64,000 nucleotides of DNA from an uncultured Prevotellaceae bacterium. Lineage in GTDB: Bacteria; Bacteroidota; Bacteroidia; Bacteroidales; Bacteroidaceae. Below the pieces are notes generated by a model. It saw nothing but the letters and a program-made list of their open reading frames with translations, was not told the origin of the DNA and made no database searches. Below, piece after piece: positions 18,345 through 63,645 of this stretch. How positions within the stretch are numbered: position 1 is the first letter of the stretch; every line of letters starts with the position of its first letter. Both the position numbers and the translations under genes were made by a program. The stretch spans positions 1 to 64,000 of the forward strand of contig CACYME010000019.1 of assembly GCA_902775475.1 (NCBI GenBank). Direction: 5' to 3'.

Positions 18345-18750
18345 GAAAATGAACACTCAACCCCCTTCAAATTTTGAAAATTTCTGCGCGAGAAAATTTT
18401 TGGCCGAAAATAAGCGAATTTTGAGAGGTTTTGCTAAGTGGTTGTCAGATAGATATTTATACTCGTTTTGGAGAAAAAAGGCGGCGGAAGGCTGAAAAAA
18501 GTCAACGCCAAATTTTCAAAAGGCGTTGACTTTTGAAAATTTGGTGTGCTTACAGAAGCAGAGGTCGAGGCAAAAAAACAGCAAAAAAACGTCAAAAATT
18601 TGCACAGAATGGGGTGTGCTGTGCAAGATTTAACCTTTTTTAGTCCTCAACGAAGTGGCAAATTCGCTTCCGAAGGGTCGAAAAAGGGCGATTTTCGAGC
18701 CAGAATCACTCTTCAGGACGAACTTTTTTTAGTGGTAATTTTGAACACTA
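18345..18750 (-). repeat. Intergenic structured element, copy A (subfamily II)
   Basis: AT-rich non-coding element in minus orientation. Hairpin 1 is GTCAACGCC (18501-18509) with GGCGTTGAC (18522-18530), flanked by the conserved TGTAAGCAC-type block. Hairpin 2 is TTGCACAG (18600-18607) with CTGTGCAA (18619-18626). The far end carries the block that in other copies reads AAACCCTCTCAAAA and TTTTCGTCCAAAAG. It lies after the obgE terminator. The ends are approximate. Confidence 0.8.
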
Positions 18751-25917: not shown

Positions 25918-26333
25918 AATGTCAAAATATTTCACAGAATATTTTGTTCACGGCGACGAAGCAATTTTGAGTGAAAAATGGCCGTTTTCGAGCCTTGGGG
26001 AGGCTTTGCCCGATGAAAAATCGGGCTGCAAACGACGAAGTTTTGCACACATCCCCTACTTTTGTGCACGTTTTTTGCGCAAATTTTGCCCCTTTTCGCG
26101 TTTTTGTAAGCACGCGAAATTTTCAAAAGTCAACGCCAAATTTTCAAAAGTCGTTGACTTTTTTTTCTAAACGAAGCCCCTTTTTTGCCAAAATCAAACC
26201 AACCTACTGACAGTCAACCATTTAGCAAACCCTCAAAAAACAGGCGTTTTTTCGTCCAAAAGTTGTTTTCGTGGAGAATTTTCAAAATATGGAGGCCAAA
26301 AATGGCCATTTTGTCAATATTGTTCAAAAAAAT
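25918..26333 (+). repeat. Intergenic structured element, copy B (subfamily I)
   Basis: AT-rich element in plus orientation, beginning AATGTCAAAATATTTCACAG and ending in a GGCCATTTTGTCAA block. Hairpins: GCCCGAT (26008-26014) with ATCGGGC (26020-26026); TGCACA (26044-26049) with TGTGCA (26063-26068); AAAAGTCAACG (26125-26135) with CGTTGACTTTT (26152-26162). It is nearly identical over its whole length to copy D (51290-51720). Both strands contain open frames of 60-100 codons, judged non-coding (see rejected items). Confidence 0.85.
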
Positions 26334-31931: not shown

Positions 31932-31939
31932 ACATAAAG

Positions 31940-31995
31940 AAGTATCGTGATAACGTAATAACGTGATAACGTAATAACGAAATAACGAAAAAAGA
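31940..31995. repeat. ATAACG-type short repeat
   Basis: GTGATAACGTAATAACGTG and related units (GATAACGTAATAACGAAATA) run through the gap between permease 2 and the HlyD gene. The complementary CGTTAT-type repeat occurs again at 53516-53606 between rseP and dxr. Confidence 0.7.
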
Positions 31996-33152: not shown

Positions 33153-34526
33153 ATGAAAAAGCTGCTTATATCATTTATCATTTTCCATTTATCATTCTGC
33201 CCCGCAGGGGCGCAGGAGCCGTGGTCGCTGGAGCGCTGCATCGACTATGCCGTGAGCCACAACATCAGCATCGAGCAGTATCGCCTGCGACTGGAGCAGC
33301 AGCAGATACAGCTCTCCAACGCCCGCAACCAGCGCCTCCCCGACCTGAATGCCTCGGCCAGCCAGAACTTCTCTTTCGGTCGAGGTCTCACCGCCGAGAA
33401 CACCTATACGAACACCAACACCTCGTCGACCTCCTTCTCCGTAGGCACTGGCGTCCCCCTCTTCACCGGCTTTCAGATTCCGAACCAGATTAAGCTGAGT
33501 CGGCTGAACCTTGAGGCCGCCACGCAGGACCTGGAGAAGGCGAAGAACGACATCCGCACGCAGGTGGCCCAGCAGTATGTGCAGGCACTCTACGACATGG
33601 AGTTGCTCGGCGTGGCCCGTCGCCAGGTCAGCATCGACAGTGCGCAGGTGGCCCGTCTGCAGGCCCTGCTCGACGTGGGGCGTGCCTCGCGTGCCGAGCT
33701 CTCGCAGCAGCAGGCCACCCTCGCCCAGAGCCAGCTCACCGTCACCCAGGCCGACAACAACCTGCGCCTGGCCCTGCTCAGCCTCAGTCAGCTGCTGGAG
33801 CTGGACAGCCCCGAGGGATTTACCGTCGAGGCCCCGGCCAACCTTTCCCAACTGGGGGAGACGGTCCCCTCCAACCTCCCCCAACTGGGAGAGGCTTTAG
33901 AAGTTACCTCTGCCGCAGGGGCTGTTCCTTCCAGTTGGGGGAGGTTGGAGGGGGCCTTGCGCCCCGAGGTGCAGGCCGAGGAAATCCGCCTGCGTGCCAC
34001 CGAGAACAGCATCAAGATTGCGCAGGCAGGCCTCTATCCCACGCTTAGCTTCAGCGCCGGTCTCGGCACGAACTACTACACCACATCCGGCTTCCGCTCC
34101 GACCCCTTCGGCAAGCAGCTCAAGAACAACTTCAGCCAGTACCTGGGTCTGAACCTTTCCATCCCCATCTTCAACCGCTTCCAGACGCGCAACAGCATCC
34201 GTCAGGCCAAGCTGGAGCGCGTGAACCAGCAGCTGCAGCTCGACCAGACGAAGAAGACGGTCTATAAGGAGATTCAGACGGCCTACTACAACACCGTGGC
34301 GGCACAGGAGAAGCTGCGCAGCAGCGACGAGGCCCGGCGCGCCAGCGAAGACGCCTTCCAGCTCGTGCAGGCTAAGTACGAGCAGGGCAAGGCCACCATC
34401 ACGGAGTTCAACGAGGCGAAGAACAACTACCTGAAGACCGAGAGCGACCTCACGCAGGCCCGCTACGAATACCTCTACCAGCGTGCCCTGCTGCGGTTCT
34501 ACCAGGGCGAGCCACTGCGCTTTTAG
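33153..34526 (+). CDS. TolC family outer-membrane channel with an in-frame palindromic insert
   Basis: This 457-residue protein is the outer-membrane exit duct of the operon. The signal peptide is KKLLISFIIFHLSFCPAGAQ; its coding bases are a TTTATCATTTTCCATTTATC-type repeat. Two TolC helical repeats follow (LERCIDYAVSHNISIEQYRL; RPEVQAEEIRLRATENSIKI). Residues about 229-268 (ANLSQLGETVPSNLPQLGEA..., SSWGRLEGA) are encoded by the GC-rich palindromic element at 33838-33956. It sits between the two halves, where homologues have a short linker, and does not break the frame. Confidence 0.92.
   Translation: MKKLLISFIIFHLSFCPAGAQEPWSLERCIDYAVSHNISIEQYRLRLEQQQIQLSNARNQRLPDLNASASQNFSFGRGLTAENTYTNTNTSSTSFSVGTGVPLFTGFQIPNQIKLSRLNLEAATQDLEKAKNDIRTQVAQQYVQALYDMELLGVARRQVSIDSAQVARLQALLDVGRASRAELSQQQATLAQSQLTVTQADNNLRLALLSLSQLLELDSPEGFTVEAPANLSQLGETVPSNLPQLGEALEVTSAAGAVPSSWGRLEGALRPEVQAEEIRLRATENSIKIAQAGLYPTLSFSAGLGTNYYTTSGFRSDPFGKQLKNNFSQYLGLNLSIPIFNRFQTRNSIRQAKLERVNQQLQLDQTKKTVYKEIQTAYYNTVAAQEKLRSSDEARRASEDAFQLVQAKYEQGKATITEFNEAKNNYLKTESDLTQARYEYLYQRALLRFYQGEPLRF
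33838..33956 (+). repeat. GC-rich palindromic element inserted in frame (tolC-like gene)
   Basis: A perfect 23-base inverted repeat covers 33866-33888 and 33931-33953 (arms begin CCCCTCCAACCTCCC and end GGAGGTTGGAGGGG). The 42-base loop holds GAGGCTTTAGAAGTTACCTC. A second partial left arm precedes it (33838-33860). It is read SNLPQLGEALEVTSAAGAVP then SSWGRLEGA. The same element is in murA, the GH3 gene and the intergenic region near 63500. Confidence 0.9.
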
Positions 34527-38847: not shown

Positions 38848-39263
38848 TTTGTCAAAATATTTCACAAAAAATTTAGCTCACGGCGACGAAGCATTCTGGA
38901 GTGAAAAATGGGCGATTTCGGGCCTTGGGGAGGCGTTGCCCGATGAAAAATTGGGCCGCAAACGACGAAATTTTGCACACATCCCCTACTTTTGTGCACG
39001 TTTTTCTCGCAATTTTTGCTCCTTTTCGCGTTTCTGCAAGCACGCCAAAAAAATAAAAAGTCAACGCCAAATTTTTCTGCGGCGTTGACTTTTGAAAACC
39101 AGCGAACGCCAATTTTGGCCAAAATTGGCTCAAACACCTGATACACAACTATTTATCTAACCCTCTCAAAATTGGCTATTTTTCGTCCAAAAGTTCTTTC
39201 GCGCAGAATTTTCGAAATATGGAGGCCTAAAACGGCCATTTTGTCAAAATCTTTCAAAAAAAG
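38848..39263 (+). repeat. Intergenic structured element, copy C (subfamily I)
   Basis: Plus orientation, from TTTGTCAAAATATTTCAC to the GGCCATTTTGTCAAAA block. Hairpins: GCCCGAT (38938-38944) with ATTGGGC (38950-38956, one G-U pair); TGCACA (38974-38979) with TGTGCA (38993-38998); GTCAACGCC (39060-39068) with GGCGTTGAC (39081-39089). It starts 10 bases after the stop of the orphan gene. Confidence 0.85.
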
Positions 39264-46026: not shown

Positions 46027-47556
46027 ATGATGCATCTGCAGCAGATTGCTGAACGCTGTCAGCAGGGCGACCGCGATGCCTTCGCCCTGCTCTATACGGC
46101 CAGTCATGATCGGCTGCGGTCGCTCTGCCTGCGCTATGTGGGCAGCGAGACCGTGGCCGATGATCTGCTGCACGATGCCTTCGTCCTCATCCTGACGCGC
46201 ATCGGCGAACTGAAGCACACGGAGCGCGTGGAGGCCTGGATGCAGCGGGTGGTGCGCAACGTGGCGCTGGTCTACCTGCGGCAGCAGAAGCAGTGGCGGC
46301 AGGTGCCCGTGGAGGCTGCCGAGGCCGTGCCGGCGGCATCCTCGTCGGCGTTGGCCTACGACGAGCTGTTGTCGGTTGTCAACGCGCTACCCGACGGCTA
46401 TCGGCAAGTGTTCCGCCTGTCGGTGTTCGAGGGCATGAGCCACCAGCAGATTGCTGCGCTGCTCGGCATCGAGCCGCACAGCTCCTCCTCGCAGCTCTTC
46501 CGGGCCAGGATGCTGCTGCGCCGGTGGCTACGGCCCGTGTTGCTCCTCGTCGTCGTCATCGGTGCCTCCTATTTCCTCCTCTCCCCCGAAGAGGCCCGCC
46601 ACGGACTTCCACGGTCTTCTTCTGCCACGGTTTCTCACGGTTCTGCACGGTCTTCTGCTACCGATGACCACGAGGTTGAACAGACGAAGAATAAGGGAGA
46701 AGAGGGCCGCCACGGTCGATGCCTGTCTGTGCCTGTGACACAACACTGTTGCGTCATAGAGGACAGGAGGGAGACGATAGCCCAAAAAGAAGACCATGAC
46801 GGTCCGTCAAAGCCCGTTGAAAAAGAAAACCGTGAAAAACCGTGGGAAACCGTGGCTAAGAAAGAAGACCGTGAAGAACCGTGGGAAACCGTGGCTAAGA
46901 AAGAAGACCGTGAAGAACCGTGGAAAACCGTGGCAGAAGATGGCCGTGGCTGGGGGATGGCCGTGGCCTACAGCGGCATGAGCAACGGTGGCCCCGGACG
47001 GCTGCCCTATGGCGACGGCTCGACCAGCGAGACCACCTACGACTCCATCAGCCACCACAGGCTGCCGCTCACCGTGGCCCTCTCGCTGCGCTATGGCCTC
47101 GACCGCCACTGGCAGGTGGGGGTAGGCGTGCAGTACACCCGCCTGACGTCGGAGCTGCTGTCGGGCAACACGTATGTGTCGTTGCAGCAGCACCAGACCG
47201 TGCAGTACCTCGGCCTGCCCGTCAGCCTGTCGTGGCGCACGCAGCTGCTCCCCCGCCTCGATGGCTACGCCTCGGCCAGCGTCAGCGTGCAGCTGCCCCT
47301 GCGCTCCACGCTCTCCAGCCACTATTTGCTGCCCGGCGGCACCGTGGCCGAGCCCACAACGGAGCGCCTCCATCCCGGCGTGCAGTGGTCGGCAGGCGTT
47401 GGCCTCGGCGTGCAGTACAACCTCGCGCCCCATGTCAGCTTCTTCGTGGAGCCGTCGCTGCAGCACTATTTCCGTAACGGCAGCACCGTCAGCACCTGGA
47501 ACACCGAGCACCCCTTCGTCCTCAGCGTTCCTTTCGGCCTGCGCATATCGTTCTGA
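46027..47556 (+). CDS. Fusion of ECF sigma factor, membrane helix and outer-membrane-type beta-barrel
   Basis: This 509-residue single frame has sigma-2 at about 10-80 (IAERCQQGDRDAFALLYTAS, ADDLLHDAFVLILTRI) and sigma-4 at about 108-165 (ALPDGYRQVFRLSVFEGMSH, QQIAALLGIEPHSSSSQLFR). One hydrophobic helix at 169-186 follows (RPVLLLVVVIGASYFLLSP). A repeat-rich linker covers about 190-307 with three 13-residue units KKEDREEPWETVA. Residues 308-509 alternate like an eight- to ten-strand barrel (VGVGVQYTRLTSELLSGN, SLQHYFRNGSTV, LSVPFGLRISF). In related organisms I recall sigma and membrane-barrel proteins as separate neighbours. A single chain would link DNA-side transcription machinery to the envelope unless it is cleaved. 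No stop or frameshift is visible at the junction. Confidence 0.8.
   Translation: MMHLQQIAERCQQGDRDAFALLYTASHDRLRSLCLRYVGSETVADDLLHDAFVLILTRIGELKHTERVEAWMQRVVRNVALVYLRQQKQWRQVPVEAAEAVPAASSSALAYDELLSVVNALPDGYRQVFRLSVFEGMSHQQIAALLGIEPHSSSSQLFRARMLLRRWLRPVLLLVVVIGASYFLLSPEEARHGLPRSSSATVSHGSARSSATDDHEVEQTKNKGEEGRHGRCLSVPVTQHCCVIEDRRETIAQKEDHDGPSKPVEKENREKPWETVAKKEDREEPWETVAKKEDREEPWKTVAEDGRGWGMAVAYSGMSNGGPGRLPYGDGSTSETTYDSISHHRLPLTVALSLRYGLDRHWQVGVGVQYTRLTSELLSGNTYVSLQQHQTVQYLGLPVSLSWRTQLLPRLDGYASASVSVQLPLRSTLSSHYLLPGGTVAEPTTERLHPGVQWSAGVGLGVQYNLAPHVSFFVEPSLQHYFRNGSTVSTWNTEHPFVLSVPFGLRISF
46598..46661 (-). repeat. CCACGGTTTCTCACGG-type repeat (inverted copy)
   Basis: Within the linker of the fusion gene the plus strand reads CCACGGACTTCCACGG and CCACGGTTTCTCACGG. 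This is the reverse complement of the ACCGTGAAGAACCGTGG unit repeated at 46819-46935, so the two tracts can form a large hairpin. Coding reads RSSSATVSHGSARSSATD. Confidence 0.75.
46819..46935 (+). repeat. Three tandem 39-base units in the fusion gene
   Basis: Units at 46819-46857, 46858-46896 and 46897-46935 each code for 13 residues of the type KKEDREEPWETVA, with ACCGTGGGAAACCGTGG in the bases. They are in frame and make a charged linker between the membrane helix and the barrel. Confidence 0.85.
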
Positions 47557-51289: not shown

Positions 51290-51720
51290 TTTTTGAACAA
51301 AATTGACAAAATGGCCATTTTTGGCCTCCATATTTTGAAAATTCTCCACGAAAACAACTTTTGGACGAAAAAACGCCTGTTTTAAAAAACGCCTGTTTTT
51401 TTGAGGGTTTGCTAAATCGTTGGCTGTCAGCGGATTGGCTTGATTTTGGCAAAAAAGGGGCTTCGTTGAGAAAAAAAAGTCAACGACTTTTGAAAATTTG
51501 GCGTTGACTTTTGAAAATTTCGCGTGCTTACAAAAACGCGAAAAGGGGCAAAATTTGAGCAAAAAACGTGCACAAAAGTAGGGTATGTGTGCAAAACTTC
51601 GTCGTTTGCGGCCCGATTTTTCATCGGGCAACGCCTCCCCAAGGCTCGAAAACGGGCATTTTTCACTCAAAACTGCTTCGCCACCGTGAACAAAATTTTC
51701 TGTGAAATATTTTGACATTT
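51290..51720 (-). repeat. Intergenic structured element, copy D (subfamily I)
   Basis: Minus orientation and nearly identical to copy B, with one internal duplication of AAACAGGCGTTTTTT. Hairpins on the plus strand: GTCAACG (51479-51485) with CGTTGAC (51502-51508); TGCACA (51569-51574) with TGTGCA (51588-51593); GCCCGAT (51611-51617) with ATCGGGC (51623-51629). It lies between the convergent M23 and rseP genes. Confidence 0.88.
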
Positions 51721-51730
51721 TTTTAAGAAA

Positions 51731-51991
51731 AAGCCCCCTCAAGCCCCTCCAGCCTCACCCCCGACCCCTCTCCAACTGGAGAGGGGAGCATATATAGACC
51801 TGAAGGATGAGAGGAAAGTGAAATGGAAAATGAGAAATGAGAAATGAGAAATGGATAGACTTGTCTCGCAGGTTCTTCGCCCGTAGGCTCGGGTCTATCC
51901 ATTTCTCATTTTCCATTTCTCATTTCTCATCCCTCATCCCTCATTTCTTACTCTCCCCTCCCTTGGGAGAGGCTGGGAGTGGCCGGGGCTG
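51731..51991. repeat. Nested inverted repeats between convergent genes
   Basis: Outer arms are GC-rich (AGCCCCTCCAGCC... at the left; GGCTGGGAGTGGCCGGGGCT at the right). A palindrome CCCCTCTCCAACTGGAGAGG lies in the left part. The inner arms 51808-51860 and 51892-51943 are built of AAATGAGAAATGAG-type units; the innermost 20 bases (GAAATGAGAAATGGATAGAC) match at 19 of 20. The end overlaps the rseP stop region. It looks like a repeat inserted inside another repeat. Confidence 0.7.
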
Positions 51992-51995
51992 GGCT

Positions 51996-53495
51996 TTACA
52001 TGTAGCCCAGCCAGCGGAGGATGTCGTTGAGGTTGGCCACCACCATGAGCAGGATGAGGATGCCGAAGCCCACATATTCAGCGCGAATCATGAACTGGTC
52101 AGAGGGCTTGCGGCGCGTAATCATCTCGTAGAGAAGGAAGAGCACGTGGCCGCCGTCGAGTGCCGGGATGGGCAGGATGTTCATGAAGGCAAGAATGATG
52201 CTCAGGAAGGCCGTCATCTCCCAGAAGCGGTGCCAGTCCCACACCTCGGGGAAGAGGCTGCCGATGGCCCCGAAGCCACCGAGCGACTTGGCGCCCTCGC
52301 TGGTGAAGACATACTTCATGTCGCTGACGTAGCCCGAGAGCTTGTGCCATCCGTAGCTGATGCCGGCGGGGATGCTTTCGAGGAAGCCGTAGCGGAACGT
52401 GGTGGGCTCGTACTTCGACATGGTGACGAAGCCCAGCTGCAGCTCAGGCGTGAGGACGGCCTGCAGGGTGTCACCCACGTAGGGCACGCTGTCGGTGGCC
52501 AGTGCAGCTTGTTCGGCTCGCCAGATGACAAGGTCGATGCTGCGCACCTTCAGGCTGTCGGCAGCGGTCTTCGCCGTGGCGAGCACGTCGCTGAGGCGCT
52601 CAATCTCGTAGGTAAACTCGTTGTGCGAGTCTACGGTCTTGCCGTTGATGGCCAGGATGGAGTCGCCAGGCTGCAGGCCAATCTCGGCGGCCGGGGTGCC
52701 GGGCATCACGCTGTCGACAACGGCAGGCAGGAAGGGGCGCATGAACATGGGCGTGGCCTTGAACATGTTGAGCAGGTTCAGGTCGGCCGACTCGGGGATG
52801 TTGATGGTGAAGGGCTGTCCCTGGCGGATGACGTTCACCTGCCGGGCCTTCGACACCTGGCGGAAGAGGTCGTCGTCGAACTTCTTCAGCGGGCCGCGGT
52901 CGGTGCTGACGAGGATGTCGTGGTCCTCGAAGCCCAGCGCCTTCGCCTCGGCGTTGAACTTCATGCCGTCGGTCATCTTCTCCACGGGGATGTAGGTCTC
53001 GCCCCAGTGGAAGAGAATCATCGAGTAGATGAACAGGGCCAGCAGGAAGTTCACCAGCACGCCGCCAATCATGATGAGCAGGCGCTGCCACGTGGGCTTC
53101 GTGCGGAACTCCCAGGGATGCGTCTCCTCCGAGAGCTTCTGGTTGGTCTCGTCGATCATGCCGTCGATGGCGCAGTAGCCGCCCAGCGGCAGCCAGCCGA
53201 GGCCATACTCCGTGCCGACATATTCTTTCACGGTCTCCTTCTTGGGTTCCTCGCCCTCCTTCTGCTCCACCGTCACTTCCTTGGTGGGCACCACTTCGGG
53301 CTTCATCTTGAACAGGCGGCGCACCCACGTGTCGTAGGTGCTGAGGATGTGGAACTTCGGGTTGAAGAAGAGATAGAACTTGGTGACGCGCACCTTGAAG
53401 ATTTTGGCGAAGGTGAAGTGGCCAAGCTCGTGGAGCAGCACCAGCAGCGAGATGGCCAGCAGGAACTGCAGCAGTCTTATCAGAAATACTTCCAT
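51996..53495 (-). CDS. rseP: Site-2 intramembrane protease RseP
   Basis: This 499-residue inner-membrane zinc protease has HELGH at residues 22-26 in the first helix, a central PDZ region (TPAAEIGLQPGDSILAINGK) and the second catalytic motif NILPIPALDGGHVLF near the C-terminus. It cleaves anti-sigma factors or signal peptide remnants in the membrane and could act on the anti-sigma protein encoded in this window; that link is inference. Residues about 68-95 form a Lys/Glu-rich loop. It lies downstream of dxr, the usual Bacteroidales order. Confidence 0.95.
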   Translation of the reverse strand: MEVFLIRLLQFLLAISLLVLLHELGHFTFAKIFKVRVTKFYLFFNPKFHILSTYDTWVRRLFKMKPEVVPTKEVTVEQKEGEEPKKETVKEYVGTEYGLGWLPLGGYCAIDGMIDETNQKLSEETHPWEFRTKPTWQRLLIMIGGVLVNFLLALFIYSMILFHWGETYIPVEKMTDGMKFNAEAKALGFEDHDILVSTDRGPLKKFDDDLFRQVSKARQVNVIRQGQPFTINIPESADLNLLNMFKATPMFMRPFLPAVVDSVMPGTPAAEIGLQPGDSILAINGKTVDSHNEFTYEIERLSDVLATAKTAADSLKVRSIDLVIWRAEQAALATDSVPYVGDTLQAVLTPELQLGFVTMSKYEPTTFRYGFLESIPAGISYGWHKLSGYVSDMKYVFTSEGAKSLGGFGAIGSLFPEVWDWHRFWEMTAFLSIILAFMNILPIPALDGGHVLFLLYEMITRRKPSDQFMIRAEYVGFGILILLMVVANLNDILRWLGYM

Positions 53496-53515
53496 TGTTG
53501 ATTAATTATTCTTTT

Positions 53516-53606
53516 TTTTCGTTATCTCGTTATGACGTTATGACGTTATTTCGTTATAACGCTGTTTCGCTATGATGTTATCTCGTTATAACGCTGTTTC
53601 GCTATG
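53516..53606. repeat. CGTTAT-type repeat overlapping the 3' end of dxr
   Basis: The 24-base unit TCGTTATAACGCTGTTTCGC + TATG occurs at 53551-53574 and 53583-53606, preceded by CGTTATGACGTTATGACG. The second copy includes the stop codon and the last five sense codons of dxr. The same oligomer in the other orientation is at 31940-31995. Confidence 0.75.
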
Positions 53607-55328: not shown

Positions 55329-56693
55329 TTAAGTCATTCGGGTGATGTGTGCGCCGAGGGCATTGAGGCGGTGCTCGATGTTCTCGTAGCCACGGTCAAT
55401 CTGCTCGATGTTGTCGATGCGGCTGGTGCCGCGGGCGCTGAGGGCCGCGATGAGCAGGGCAATGCCGGCGCGGATGTCGGGGCTCGACATGCGCCCACCG
55501 CGCAGCTGCAGCTTGCGGTCGTGGCCCACGACGACGGCCCGGTGGGGGTCGCAGAGGATAATCTGTGCACCCATGTCGATGAGCTTGTCGACGAAGAACA
55601 GCCGGCTCTCGAACATCTTCTGGTGGAAGAGCACCGAGCCGCGGGCCTGCGTGGCCACGGTGATGAGCACCGAGAGCAGGTCGGGCGTCAGGCCCGGCCA
55701 CGGCGCGTCGGCCAGCGTCATGATGGTGCCGTCGATGAACGACTGTATCTCGTAGTGGCGCATGCGGGGGATGAAGAGGTCGTCGCCCTCCTCCTTCACC
55801 TTGATGCCCATGCGGCGGAAGGTGTTGGGGATGATGCCCAAGTTCCTGAGCGACACGTCCTTGATGCGGATGCCGTCGCCCACCATGGCCGCCATGCCGA
55901 TGAACGAGCCCACCTCGATCATGTCGGGCAGGATGCGGTGCGTGGTGCCGTGCAGGCTGTCGACGCCCTCGATGGTGAGCAGGTTCGAGGCGATGCCGCT
56001 GATGCGTGCGCCCATGTTGTTGAGCATGAGGCAGAGCTGCTGCACGTAGGGCTCGCAGGCGGCGTTGTAGATGGTGGTGGTGCCCTTGGCCATCACGGCG
56101 GCCATCACGATGTTGGCCGTGCCGGTGACGCTGGCCTCGTCGAGCAGCATGTAGCTGCCCTTGAGGCGCTGGGCCGACAGCTCGTAGACGCCGCGCTCAG
56201 GCACGTGGCCGAAGTGGGCCCCGAGGCGCTCGAAGCCCAGGAAATGGGTGTCCAGGCGCCGGCGTCCAATCTTGTCGCCGCCAGGCTTAGCCACGACGGC
56301 CTTGCCCATGCGCGTCAGCAGCGGGCCAATCATCATCACCGAGCCGCGCAGCTGTGCGCACTTCTTCACGAACTCGTCGCTCTGCAGATAGTCGAGGTTC
56401 AGCTCGTCGGCCTGGAAGGTAGCTCCCCTCAATTCCCCCCACTGGGGGGAAGTCTCCGCCGCAGGAGCCTCTCCCAGTCGGGGGAGGTTAGAGGGGGCTG
56501 TCACTTTCACCCCGATGTCGCGGAGCAGGCTGATGAGGTTGTTGACGTCGCGGATGTTGGGAATGTTGCTGATGGTGACAGGCTCGGCAGTGAGCAGCGT
56601 GGCACAGATGACCTGCAGGGCCTCGTTCTTCGCTCCCTGCGGCGTGATGGTTCCACTAAGCTGGTGTCCGCCTTCGATGATAAATGCAGCCAT
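55329..56693 (-). CDS. murA: UDP-N-acetylglucosamine 1-carboxyvinyltransferase, Asp variant, with palindromic insert
   Basis: This 454-residue enzyme adds enolpyruvate to UDP-GlcNAc, the first committed step of peptidoglycan synthesis. The core (LSGTITPQGAKNEALQVICA; SVTGTANIVMAAVMAKGTTT; LPDMIEVGSFIGMAAM) is intact. In the loop that normally carries the fosfomycin-target Cys (PGGC.IG), this protein has VVAKPGGDKIGRRRLD with Asp140. Such Asp variants work but are naturally fosfomycin-resistant in other bacteria. Residues about 66-91 (APSNLPRLGEAPAAETSPQW then GELRGA) are encoded by the palindromic element at 56421-56499 and lengthen a loop that is short in relatives. Confidence 0.96.
   Translation of the reverse strand: MAAFIIEGGHQLSGTITPQGAKNEALQVICATLLTAEPVTISNIPNIRDVNNLISLLRDIGVKVTAPSNLPRLGEAPAAETSPQWGELRGATFQADELNLDYLQSDEFVKKCAQLRGSVMMIGPLLTRMGKAVVAKPGGDKIGRRRLDTHFLGFERLGAHFGHVPERGVYELSAQRLKGSYMLLDEASVTGTANIVMAAVMAKGTTTIYNAACEPYVQQLCLMLNNMGARISGIASNLLTIEGVDSLHGTTHRILPDMIEVGSFIGMAAMVGDGIRIKDVSLRNLGIIPNTFRRMGIKVKEEGDDLFIPRMRHYEIQSFIDGTIMTLADAPWPGLTPDLLSVLITVATQARGSVLFHQKMFESRLFFVDKLIDMGAQIILCDPHRAVVVGHDRKLQLRGGRMSSPDIRAGIALLIAALSARGTSRIDNIEQIDRGYENIEHRLNALGAHITRMT
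56421..56499 (-). repeat. GC-rich palindromic element inserted in frame (murA)
   Basis: Arms at 56421-56446 (AGCTCCCCTCAATTCC...) and 56473-56499 (...GGGGGAGGTTAGAGGGGGCT) are inverted with several mismatches. Read in the murA direction it codes for SNLPRLGEAPAAETSPQWGE then LRGA, the same frame as in the tolC-like and GH3 genes. Confidence 0.88.
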
Positions 56694-58189: not shown

Positions 58190-58640
58190 CAAAATTTCCT
58201 CGAATTTTGGGCCTTTTTCGGCCGTTAACCCCCTCCAAAACTCGAAAATTTTGCGCGAAGAATTTTTTTCGTGAAAATGAGCGAATTTTGAGCGATTTTA
58301 GCAATGTGCTGATTGTTAGGGTGTTAACGAAAATTTTGAAGAAAAACGCGGCGGCGGGCTTTCAAAAGTCAACGCCGCAGAAAAATTTGGCGTTGACTTT
58401 TGAAAATTTGGCGTGCTTACAGCGAGCGCATTTGGCGCAAAATTTGGGCAAAAAATGTGCACAAAAGCCCCTCTTGTGTGCAAAAAAGAGCTTTTTGGGC
58501 ACTTTTTCCCGTTCGCCAACGTTGCACAAATAGCAAGAAATGTGCAGATTTTGCTTCCAATTCGTTCCAGAAAGAGAAATTTTCCCTGCAAAAATTTTAC
58601 CCCCCCCAACGCACTTTTTTGGCGACATTTTGAACACTCG
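58190..58640 (-). repeat. Intergenic structured element, copy E (subfamily II)
   Basis: Minus orientation. On the plus strand: GTCAACGCC (58368-58376) with GGCGTTGAC (58389-58397); TGCACAAAAG (58458-58467) with CTTGTGTGCA (58473-58482), nine of ten paired. Its right end shares TTTTGAACACT with copy A. It lies between the divergent tsaB and GH3 promoters. The ends are approximate. Confidence 0.8.
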
Positions 58641-58738: not shown

Positions 58739-60961
58739 ATGATACGACAAATGATTGCAGCAACACTCTTGGCCGCCTCGACCCCTGCCGTGGCGCAAGA
58801 CCGTCTGGCCCAGCTGGAGGAGCAGGCCGACAACCTGATAGCACAGATGACGCTGGAGGAGAAGTTCTCGCAGCTGATGAACGAGACGCCCGGCATTCCC
58901 CGCTTAGGCATCGAGCCCTACGACTGGTGGAACGAGGGCCTGCACGGCGTGGGCCGCAGCGGACGCGCCACCGTCTTCCCCCAGCCCATCGGCCTGGCCG
59001 CCACGTTCGACACCGAGGCGGTGCAGCAGATTGGCGACGCCATTGCCACCGAGGCGCGAGCCAAGTATGTGGTGGCCCGCCGCAACAAGAACTACTCGCG
59101 CTATACGGGCCTTACGTTCTGGAGCCCGAACGTGAACATCTTCCGCGACCCGCGCTGGGGGCGTGGCATGGAGACCTGGGGCGAGGACCCCTTCCTCACC
59201 GGCACCATGGGCAGCGCCTTCGTGCGCGGCATGCAGGGCGATGACCCCGTCTACCTGAAGGTGGCGGCCTGCGGCAAGCACTACGCCGTGCACAGCGGAC
59301 CGGAGGCCACGCGCCACGAGGCCAATGTGGAGCCTTCGAAGCACGACCTCTGGGAGACCTACCTGCCTGCCTTCGAGATGCTGGTGAAGGAGGCGAAGGT
59401 GGAAATCATCATGGGGGCCTACAACCGCGTCTACGGCGAGAGCGCCTCGGGCAGCAAGCTGCTGCTCACCGACATCCTGCGCCAGCAGTGGGGCTTCAAG
59501 GGGCACATCGTCTCCGACTGCGGCGCCGTCACCGACATCTACTACGGCCACAAGATAGCGAAGAGCGAGGCCGAGGCCTGCGCCATCGCCATCAAGGCGG
59601 GCCTGAACGTGGAGTGCGGCACCACCTTCCGCGCCCTGAAGGACGCCCTCAGCCAGCAGCTGCTCACCGAGGACGACATCAACCGCGCCCTGAAGCCGCT
59701 GATGATGACGCGCCTGAAGCTGGGCATCATCAACGACGACCCGCAGTGCCCCTACAACCACGTGGGCGAGGAGCAGATAGGCTCCGAGGAGCACATCGCC
59801 CTGGCCCGCCGCGCCGCCCAGGAGGGCATGGTGCTGCTGAAGAACGAGCGCGGCGCACTGCCCATCGACAAGAACATCCACACGCTCTTCGTCAGCGGTG
59901 CCGGCGCTGCCGACGCCTTCTGGCTGATGGGCAACTACTTCGGCATCAGCGACCGCTACTGCACCTACCTGCAGGGCATCGTGTCGAAGGTGTCTAACGG
60001 CACCGCGGTGAACTATCGGCCCGGCGTACTGGAGAACGCTCCCACGCGCAACGCCATCAACTGGGCCGTCGACGAGGCCGCCGGGGCCGAGAAGAGCATC
60101 ATCGTGATGGGCAACAACGGCAACCTGGAGGGCGAAGAGGGCGAGGCCATCGACAGCGAGCGCGGCGACCGCTCGGACATCAGCATCCCCGAGAGCCAGA
60201 TGAACTTCCTGCGCCAGGTGTGCCGCCGCAAGAAGCAGGGCGTCATCGTGGTGCTCACCGGCGGCAGCCCCGTCGACGTGCGCGAGGTGTGCCAGCTGGC
60301 CGACGCCGTGGTCATGGCCTGGTATCCCGGTCAGGAGGGCGGCTACGCCCTGGCCGACGTGCTCTTCGGCGACGCCAACTTCTCGGGCCGTCTGCCGGTC
60401 ACCTTCCCCGAGGACGGCAACCGCCTGCCCCCCTTCGACGACTATTCCATGCGCGGACGCACCTATAAATATATGGTGGACAACATCTACTTCCCCTTCG
60501 GCTTCGGACTGAGCTATGGCCACGTGGGCTACTCTGGCCTGAGCGTGAAGGCCGACAAGAAGACGGGTGCCACGGTGACCCTGCAGCTGACCAACGAGGG
60601 CGACCGCGCCATCACCGAGACGCCGCAGGTCTACGTGACGCCTCCGGCCCCCTCCAACCTCCCCCAACAGGGGAAGGCTTCCCACGCGGAGAATCCCGGC
60701 GCTGCCACCCCCTCCAGCTGGAGGGGACAGGGGGAGGCCCTCCTGCAGCAGCTGGTGGCCTTCCGCCGCGTCACGGTGGCTCCCGGCGAGACGGTCACCG
60801 TCAGCTTCGACATCCCCGTGGAGCGACTGATGACCGTGCAGGACGACGGCTCGCGGAAGCTGGTCAAGGGCGAGTACACCATCAGCGCCGCCAGCGCAGC
60901 ACCCTCGCCCCGCAGCGAGGCCCTCGGCGTGCAGGTGCTGTCGGCCAAGGTGAAACTATAA
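58739..60961 (+). CDS. Glycoside hydrolase family 3 (beta-xylosidase/glucosidase type) with palindromic insert
   Basis: This 740-residue enzyme has a signal peptide (MIAATLLAASTPAVAQ). The N-terminal barrel includes WNEGLHGVGRSGRATVFPQP and KHYAVHSGPEATRH; the nucleophile is Asp260 in HIVSDCGAVTDIYYG. The second sugar-binding domain (VVLTGGSPVDVREV, AWYPGQEGGYALADVLFGDA) and an FnIII-like end (GLSYG..., GETVTVSFDIPVERLM) follow. The pattern resembles Prevotella xylan or oligosaccharide beta-xylosidases. Residues about 637-667 (APSNLPQQGKASHAENPGAA then TPSSWRGQGEA) come from the palindromic element at 60647-60740 within the FnIII-like domain. Confidence 0.92.
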   Translation: MIRQMIAATLLAASTPAVAQDRLAQLEEQADNLIAQMTLEEKFSQLMNETPGIPRLGIEPYDWWNEGLHGVGRSGRATVFPQPIGLAATFDTEAVQQIGDAIATEARAKYVVARRNKNYSRYTGLTFWSPNVNIFRDPRWGRGMETWGEDPFLTGTMGSAFVRGMQGDDPVYLKVAACGKHYAVHSGPEATRHEANVEPSKHDLWETYLPAFEMLVKEAKVEIIMGAYNRVYGESASGSKLLLTDILRQQWGFKGHIVSDCGAVTDIYYGHKIAKSEAEACAIAIKAGLNVECGTTFRALKDALSQQLLTEDDINRALKPLMMTRLKLGIINDDPQCPYNHVGEEQIGSEEHIALARRAAQEGMVLLKNERGALPIDKNIHTLFVSGAGAADAFWLMGNYFGISDRYCTYLQGIVSKVSNGTAVNYRPGVLENAPTRNAINWAVDEAAGAEKSIIVMGNNGNLEGEEGEAIDSERGDRSDISIPESQMNFLRQVCRRKKQGVIVVLTGGSPVDVREVCQLADAVVMAWYPGQEGGYALADVLFGDANFSGRLPVTFPEDGNRLPPFDDYSMRGRTYKYMVDNIYFPFGFGLSYGHVGYSGLSVKADKKTGATVTLQLTNEGDRAITETPQVYVTPPAPSNLPQQGKASHAENPGAATPSSWRGQGEALLQQLVAFRRVTVAPGETVTVSFDIPVERLMTVQDDGSRKLVKGEYTISAASAAPSPRSEALGVQVLSAKVKL
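60647..60740 (+). repeat. GC-rich palindromic element inserted in frame (GH3)
   Basis: Arms GGCCCCCTCCAACCTCCCCC (60647-60666) and CAGGGGGAGGCCC at the right end are inverted imperfectly. The middle holds CACCCCCTCCAGCTGGAGGG, itself palindromic. It is read SNLPQQGKASHAENPGAATP then SSWRGQGEA. The frame matches the tolC-like and murA insertions. Confidence 0.85.
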
Positions 60962-62929: not shown

Positions 62930-63340
62930 ATGCAAACGAACGCTAAAATAATTTTCTTGATTTTTTACAAAAAAAATTTCAATTTAGAACGAGAAAATGC
63001 ACATTTCCGCCCGTTTGTGCAGCTTTTTGCGATGATGCGAAAACGGTTCCCGACGCGAAAACTGCACAAACAAGGTGGTTTTGTGCAGGATTTTGGCCGA
63101 TTTTGGCAAAATTTTGCGCGATTTTTGGGTCGTTTTCCGTTTCTGTAAGCACGCCAAATTTTCAAAAGTCAACTCCAAATTTTTCTGCGGCGTTGACTTT
63201 TTCAAGCCATCGAAGGGCTATTTTCGCCGATTTAGCGATAAACTACTGAGTATCAGCACTTTGGCAAACCCTCTCAAAACTCGCGTATTTTCGTCCAAAA
63301 GTTTTTTCGTGCAGAATTTTTAAAATATGAGGCCCTTTAA
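62930..63340 (+). repeat. Intergenic structured element, copy F (subfamily II)
   Basis: Plus orientation. CTGCACAAA (63062-63070) pairs perfectly with TTTGTGCAG (63080-63088); GTCAACTCC (63168-63176) pairs with GGCGTTGAC (63189-63197) with one mismatch. The blocks AAACCCTCTCAAAA and TTTTCGTCCAAAAG follow near the right end. It lies between the divergent HTH regulator and kduI. The left end is approximate. Confidence 0.8.
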
Positions 63341-63463
63341 CACTTTTTAATCCCCTCCTGATTTAACATATTTTTATCCTTTGTGCCTCCTCCAGTAACT
63401 ACTCAGTTGCCACAAGTAGAGACGCAGAGGGCGCAGCGTCTCAGCGCGAGTCCAAAGGTGGCC

Positions 63464-63563
63464 ACCTCCAACCTCCCCCAACTGGGGGAGGCTTTAGAAG
63501 TTACTTCCAGCCGCGGAATCCGGCGCAGCCACTCCCCCCCTGTTGGGGGATTGAGGGGGCCCG
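63464..63563 (+). repeat. GC-rich palindromic element, intergenic copy
   Basis: Left arm ACCTCCAACCTCCCCCAACT, loop with GAGGCTTTAGAAGTTACTTC, and right arm CTGTTGGGGGATTGAGGGGG. The same frame used in the three genes would read SNLPQLGEALEVTSSRGIRR here, but no gene surrounds it. It shows that the element also exists outside coding sequence. Confidence 0.85.
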
Positions 63564-63645
63564 TAAGTCTATAGAAAACGTGGGGGCAACCGCAACAGCT
63601 TGAACTTTTTCCTGCAAAGCATATCGGAATATCAGAAAAAAGTTG

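Follow-up and report, generated by a model that had tools for sequence, protein, structure and literature searches.

A palindromic element in frame within a tolC-like gene

The 64,000-nt window analysed here belongs to a 3.73 Mb draft genome (99% complete, 69 contigs) of an uncultured Prevotellaceae bacterium. On its forward strand lies a gene for a TolC/OEP-family outer membrane protein (33153..34526, 457 aa), in which PF02321 matches two stretches (E 6.9e-62). A palindromic element of what we call family A occupies ~33828..33958 of this gene on the same strand, as delineated by a profile-search cluster, its translation and an AlphaFold model. Its core is the perfect 23-bp inverted repeat that had been predicted: the left arm (33866..33888, forward strand) falls within SNLPQLGE and the right arm (33931..33953, forward strand) within SSWGRLEGA, with a loop of 42 nt between them. 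Upstream is an additional, degenerate unit A that reads ANLSQLGET (33830..33860, forward strand; 87% by BLAST to consensus positions 1-31), giving the composite architecture A(partial)-A-spacer-A'. When folded as RNA, positions 33863-33956 are predicted to form a hairpin of -71.1 kcal/mol, compared with -41.9 for shuffled sequences (z = -8.1).

The reading frame is free of stops over its whole length, and the element becomes approximately residues 227-266, in the linker joining the two OEP halves. The original prediction of extra in-frame residues in this linker was right about frame and place, but the insert is not a clean addition. It takes the place of a portion of a variable linker, which ends up a net ~17 to 20 aa longer than in those orthologues where it is shortest (a hand count on the alignment). 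The AlphaFold model, which had 15 orthologues as input, has a mean pLDDT of 74 and a pTM of 0.60. The insert is modelled as a low-confidence loop, with pLDDT <50 at residues 230-266 and likewise at 1-5, 11-20 and 308-313.

Related DNA occurs at three other places in the window. The murA gene (UDP-GlcNAc enolpyruvyl transferase; 55329..56693, reverse strand; PF00275, E 2.3e-61), named from its Pfam family and an alignment of orthologues, carries an in-frame copy of the A-B' form (APSNLPRLGEAPAAETSPQWGELRGA; 56417..56503, reverse strand), identified by profile search, translation and comparison of filled and empty orthologues. In the MurA model (mean pLDDT 71, 15 sequences as input) the insert, residues 68-88, is below 50 and lies between strands 63-65 and 90-94; five further stretches are also <50. 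A GH3 gene (58739..60961, forward strand; PF00933/PF01915/PF14310) hosts a degenerate copy, recognised by profile search and translation, that is likewise in frame (APSNLPQQGKASHAENPGAATPSSWRGQGEA; 60643..60739, forward strand). The last copy (63456..63566, forward strand) is intergenic, near-full-length and 94% identical to the consensus. The expectation that both the DNA and its reading frame would recur is borne out for the DNA at all three places and for the codon register in murA and GH3, which is also that of the tolC copy, but not for the frame of the intergenic copy, where indels relative to the consensus disrupt it.

Several other repeats were noted in the window. An inverted repeat at 51828-51925, with 33-bp arms (2 mismatches) composed of AAATGAG repeats, overlaps the start of the ORF at 51837-53501 and is possibly another coding palindrome, of a low-complexity type. 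A repeat of up to ~380 nt, designated families D1, D4 and D12, occurs at 25920-26302, 38850-39233 and 63112-63341 (66-90% alike), mostly between listed ORFs, and an AT-rich repeat (AAAAGTCAACG...GGCGTTGACTTTT) at 18497-18554, 51475-51532 and 58364-58421 (78-88% alike). Tandem repeats of 8 bp (GTTATGAC-like) lie immediately 3' of ORFs at 53505-53605 and 31939-31983, and repeats of 39 bp lie inside the ORF at 46027-47556 (46786-46948). Close to the window start (9-91) there are GGCAGCGGCCGCTGCCA repeats; GGCAGCGGCCGCTGCC was also found near an element in L028.

Family A is dispersed through the genome and its relatives

Across the genome, TCCCCCAACTGG occurs 68 times with at most one mismatch, against 14 occurrences of a reversed-pattern control, so family A is not a product of chance. 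The 102-nt consensus gave at least 84 overlapping BLAST matches (E up to 1) at 40 of 45 candidate places, and at least 16 matches span nearly the full length with identity of at least 88%. A profile search (nhmmer) of the window and 32 further stretches, all picked around BLAST matches except one taken around a Y1 gene, resolved family A into 42 clusters, whose boundaries are approximate. A full element consists of two slightly different hairpin units, inverted relative to each other, that flank a spacer (A-spacer-B'), and measures ~102 nt; A-spacer-A' pairs and single units exist as well.

The hosts are functionally diverse. In a Pfam scan of 30 proteins (among them the products of the Y1 gene and of one ORF without assignment; 4/30 without a match), the families represented were OEP, MurA (EPSP_synthase family), GH3, GH2, GH43, GH92, M16, TamB, FeoAB, GATase_3/CbiA, CvfB, Na/H exchanger, subtilase, HAD, PAP2 and others.

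The search of the genome and its relatives that the original prediction had recommended thus yielded, besides the 42 clusters at home, family A matches (E up to 1e-3) in 16 of the 60 genomes of the genus, own genome included; those beyond our genome mostly comprise one 30-40-nt unit only. Order-wide, family A was detected in at least 5 of 295 genomes (our own and four of other families) and F2, a second family described below, in at least one (our own). Both figures are lower bounds based on the best three candidates per genome, with a single other genome of the genus included. Exact matches to unit A in GTDB contigs, a scan that may omit our own genome, comprised 30 stretches in 16 genomes, of which 14 are titled Prevotella or Prevotellaceae, one bacterium UBA3734 and one Dysgonomonas sp. 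25; no Rickettsia record was among these matches. Several of the MAGs with unit A are, by their titles, of ruminant stomach origin, and one MAG titled Prevotella, RGIG8062, has unit A and a MurA fragment with 87% identity to ours. Together, the occurrence of unit A and this identity suggest that our genome belongs to a relative of Prevotella.

The exact unit A of Dysgonomonas sp. 25 (L202) is in another genus of the order and has no long ORF around it. Either transfer or a wider family could account for it.

The elements keep the reading frame of their hosts

F2 (GCCCCCC...GGGGGGC, ~87 nt) is a palindrome unrelated to family A. It is present in at least 9 of the 60 genus genomes, own included (best 15 candidates per genome), and was studied in five genomes/species through 43 fetched stretches with 50 hits. 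In our genome it resides in ligA, dxs and rsgA, and overall its hosts comprise LigA, DXS, RsgA, a PPDK-domain protein, an OPT transporter, NAGLU, an M3 peptidase and GH32. In one genome (G034), F2 lies inside an OEP protein, ahead of the second OEP stretch.

We called strand and frame from the 180 nt on either side of each element, skipping the element itself. Among 131 clusters, 70 were undecidable or at an edge; 60 of the 61 decidable ones keep the host frame. The ratios of same to other frame are 33/0 for F2 (50 clusters), 18/1 for family A in our genome (42) and 9/0 for family A in other genomes (39). The sole exception (L082:3017-3193) sits between two ORFs, and no host in this set has a frameshift at the element. 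As a control, 513 random element-free positions in the stretches from our genome gave 294 with the same frame, 15 with another frame and 4 with opposite strands. The test indicates that the elements reside in gene interiors without breaking the genes.

The elements are also read in a preferred codon register. Codon usage assigned hosts to 32 of the 42 clusters in our genome, in 28 ORFs; these run from stop to stop, so copies near the N-terminus may lie 5' of the actual start codon. On visual inspection, 28 of these 32 are read alike (APSNLPQLGEA... forward, ...SPSWGRLEGA reverse), and two of the four exceptions are a different palindrome, F3. A stricter automatic caller, which was trained on the window and so overlooks coding copies where a relative's composition differs, classed as coding 17 of 32 unit-A elements from our genome and 14 of 31 from others (63 elements in all). 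The preferred register was used in 15 of these 17 and 12 of these 14, that is, in 27 of 31 coding calls; 4 of 31 differ. Because unit A is stop-free in all six frames, stop avoidance alone is insufficient to explain its register. The binomial probability against an expectation of 1/3 (9e-10) is overstated, since some copies are orthologous. In the full-length A consensus two frames are open on the forward strand and one on the reverse, and the register of full-length copies read backwards is therefore mostly stop avoidance. Constant register could instead reflect a target preference.

F3 (PTPTPPQGKGLGS...) was seen at L071:1792-1904 and L078:2317-2428, where it reads PTPTPPQG(K/R)GL...; one copy lies within a helicase-like ORF and the other where a HAD ORF begins. 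The helicase-like ORF carries only the F3 copy and no A. Low-complexity stretches of the AACTCC type make up a further kind of palindrome.

For F2, 43 of the 50 hits are called coding; 40 of these use one register, 37 in one orientation, and three read another frame. The peptide in the main register is APPSAPEGATID..KTIEAPSGAVGGA. In the common orientation one translated copy has a single open frame. The F2 register is weaker evidence, since stop avoidance accounts for most of it. Among 33 aligned F2 copies, of 25, 27, 28 or 29 codons, the spacer varies in length by whole codons, although these copies were selected as coding, which favours open frames.

These spacers bear on whether the hairpins enter the protein at all. 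Some mitochondrial hairpin inserts are bypassed by the ribosome or spliced, and the hairpins here, in ligA, murA and other genes, are very stable, at -64 to -71 kcal/mol in the three that were folded. Yet the frames remain open and F2 spacers vary by whole codons, neither of which bypass would require, and we consider bypass or splicing highly improbable.

Single-base variants in 33 of the 37 main-register F2 copies (four partial ones left out) include 74 synonymous and 87 nonsynonymous changes, a ratio of 1.18 against an expected 2.33 that is confounded by stem pairing and shared ancestry. The changes within elements in four pairs of orthologues (synonymous/nonsynonymous 1/1, 6/4, 1/2 and 3/6) reveal no clear synonymous bias and lend no support to strong constraint. 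Selection on the F2 peptide was accordingly set aside as an explanation, and the encoded peptide is probably tolerated rather than useful.

Filled and empty sites in orthologues

All comparisons of filled and empty sites are between species. The family A residues are absent from all 14 aligned tolC orthologues (0/14); the outcome that would have counted against the original prediction, the same residues in distant orthologues, was not seen for tolC. In at least three of these orthologues (G077, G086 and G095) the linker has other repeat-like stretches, and in several it is short. At the MurA site, which follows GVKV, 15 species were compared: the sequence is A-like in five (G000, G090, G092, G094 and G096), F2-like in G059 and occupied by other palindromes in G077 and G087, and none was recognised in the remaining seven. 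The A copy of MurA is thus common to relatives.

The zinc-finger loop of LigA reads RYEGE in five of eight aligned species, and three unrelated palindromes occupy it in G000, G059 and G064. The last of these (L382, G064:C77), AGCCTCACCCCC...GGGGGTGAGGCT, is unlike A and F2 in sequence. Among eight aligned M3 peptidases, F2 is found only in G000 and G059, and two of the six species without it (G018 and G086) have repeat-like stretches. RsgA contains F2 in G000 and G090, and five other species lack it. The inserts in tolC, M16 and MurA stand in place of native loop residues, reflecting either insertion plus deletion or gradual replacement.

Where two species share an element at the same site, identity within the element slightly exceeds that of the flanks in three of four pairs and roughly matches it in the fourth (element versus flank identities of 85/87 and 552/600 in the M3 peptidase, and 72/84 and 460/591, 99/102 and 495/507, and 74/87 and 456/564 at the other sites). 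These identities fit inheritance, and homogenisation or repeated insertion are possible alternatives.

It is also conceivable that no mobile element is involved, and that quasi-palindromes arise locally in flexible loops through template switching during replication and repeat slippage. The same loops do hold short tandem words, some of them on both arms of a palindrome (TolC of G086, LigA of G059 and M16 of G090), and some F2 copies are nested in a further inverted repeat (5/35, against 1.25 expected). This excess is also suggestive, but only suggestive, of elements landing in older palindromes. Local growth may well account for the low-complexity palindromes. However, it cannot yield an 87-105-nt sequence, spacer included, that is common to many unlinked places, and for A and F2 we judge it very unlikely.

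The M16 peptidase of G090 (L256, G090:C83) contains a long in-frame GVKGSEKGVKGSE...SLPLHSSFTPLSLPL, with seemingly tandem repeats on both arms of the inverted repeat. A scan for any palindrome in 37 orthologue stretches (113,937 nt) found eight, three of them within ORFs of at least 200 aa.

Translated selfish palindromes as the probable explanation

We consider it probable that the elements are selfish palindromes that their hosts translate. Such short repeats, ~35-105 nt long and non-autonomous, would multiply by copying to new places in the chromosome and survive within genes. Their arms and spacer can be read as a stop-free, polar peptide rich in Pro, Gly and Ala, so protein loops would tolerate them. 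Movement would proceed via a hairpin, and hence single-stranded, intermediate, driven by an enzyme and with no target duplication. Selection would remove copies that break frame or fold, and slow decay would follow. The distribution among orthologues is consistent with vertical inheritance of some copies.

So, what moves the palindromes? No mobilising enzyme was found in a search directed at Y1_Tnp. None of 35 F2 sites (from 50 hits, with ~5 ends mis-set on a neighbouring repeat) is flanked by direct repeats of at least 3 nt. This absence weighs against miniature inverted-repeat elements (MITEs) of a DDE-type insertion sequence, which would have terminal inverted repeats and be moved in trans by the parental IS. 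Family A and F2 do have ends in common, (A/G)GCCCCC ... GGGGGC(T/C), and their length and copy number are compatible with MITEs, but given the F2 sites such an origin seems distinctly unlikely.

Absence of target duplication is compatible with REPINs or BIMEs, pairs of inverted REP units moved by a RAYT (Y1) transposase, which here would be unusual only in residing mostly within genes. The organisation of family A, with two hairpin units in inverted orientation and with both singlets and inverted pairs, resembles REP doublets. Among the 33 genus genomes with completeness of 90% or more and contamination of 5% or less, 6 of the 7 with family A and 11 of the 26 without it have Y1_Tnp (Fisher p 0.085), but the association is gone when all 60 are counted (8/16 versus 20/44, p 0.78). 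The only Y1_Tnp found in our draft genome scores as IS200 (67.8, cut-off 55) and falls short as RAYT (23.8, cut-off 80), and no element flanks it. At 30 Y1 loci, from the 51 Y1 matches listed, there were two weak element matches (E 0.0014 and 0.28). Moreover, the ends of the A alignment lack a GTAG/CGTC tag, and the GTAG of F2 is internal and on one side only. A REPIN origin is therefore unlikely, and RAYT/IS200 was rejected as the mover, given no link over the 60 genomes, an own gene of IS200 type and no flanking copies.

If the elements are translated selfish palindromes, a possible mover, which we name tentatively, is a HUH-type enzyme that cuts hairpins and either acts in trans or has disappeared from the genome. 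Recombination, template-switch copying or another transposase may serve instead.

A more far-reaching version, which we regard as rather doubtful, is that these palindromes arose independently of Rickettsia and are a standing source of new protein segments in Prevotella. Several unrelated families would repeatedly colonise the same loops at the surface of core enzymes, selection would act on both codon register and peptide, and the elements would spread as a mobile protein module and not as non-coding DNA.

Whatever the mover, the Prevotella relatives offer many species, loci and filled and empty orthologues in which insertion, tolerance and decay are measurable. The elements also matter for annotation and structural work, where such inserts otherwise pass for odd lineage-specific loops.

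Comparison with known systems

In-frame palindromes have been regarded as a peculiarity of Rickettsia and Wolbachia, intracellular bacteria with small genomes. The original prediction took this behaviour as not known to be described for Bacteroidales. The open-access literature matches listed include no report of translated palindromes in Prevotella or Bacteroidales proteins, but related repeats in Bacteroidetes are on record. PMC3733652 describes REPs within genes of other phyla and, in Bacteroidetes, repeats that bear a CGTC tag; some REPs lie in ORFs, among them a DNA ligase of O. terrae. PMC9769881 describes a MITE from Cardinium, a member of the Bacteroidetes, whose ends are palindromic.

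With REPs, REPINs and BIMEs, as portrayed in PMC3733652, the elements share hairpin units that occur as singlets and as inverted pairs with a spacer, and an intragenic location in some cases. They differ in that no RAYT was found, family A lacks terminal GTAG/CGTC, many copies are intragenic and one register is used. Coding palindromes with both arms of the inverted repeat translated are also reported, in PMC6649704, from nematomorph mitochondria. There the arms are conserved native residues, whereas here the residues are missing in many orthologues and the sequence is dispersed.

The closest parallel is with the Rickettsia palindromic elements (RPEs) and those of Wolbachia. According to PMC3767692 and PMC10969869, RPEs are palindromic repeats of 100-150 bp that form several families, are inserted in frame in unrelated genes and encode a conserved peptide. 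They are solvent-exposed, and orthologues may carry a different RPE group nearby or have a longer insert in that position. The elements described here are similarly dispersed and palindromic, in several families, in frame and with a conserved peptide, and orthologues have different palindromes in the same loop of MurA and LigA. As to surface position, the MurA and TolC inserts are modelled as low-confidence loops, whose exposure would be putative. In contrast to RPEs, the present elements come from a different phylum and from a genome of larger size (3.7 Mb), with different sequences and with lengths (A ~102 nt, F2 ~87 nt) at or slightly below the RPE range. RPE-like behaviour, as originally predicted, thus holds within the window and beyond it, in palindromic form, dispersal, preferred register and predicted loops, and the comparison supports an analogy of behaviour rather than homology or descent. 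That several in-frame families are found, seemingly independently, in so distant a group with larger genomes suggests that functional proteins can gain residues from selfish DNA by a general route.
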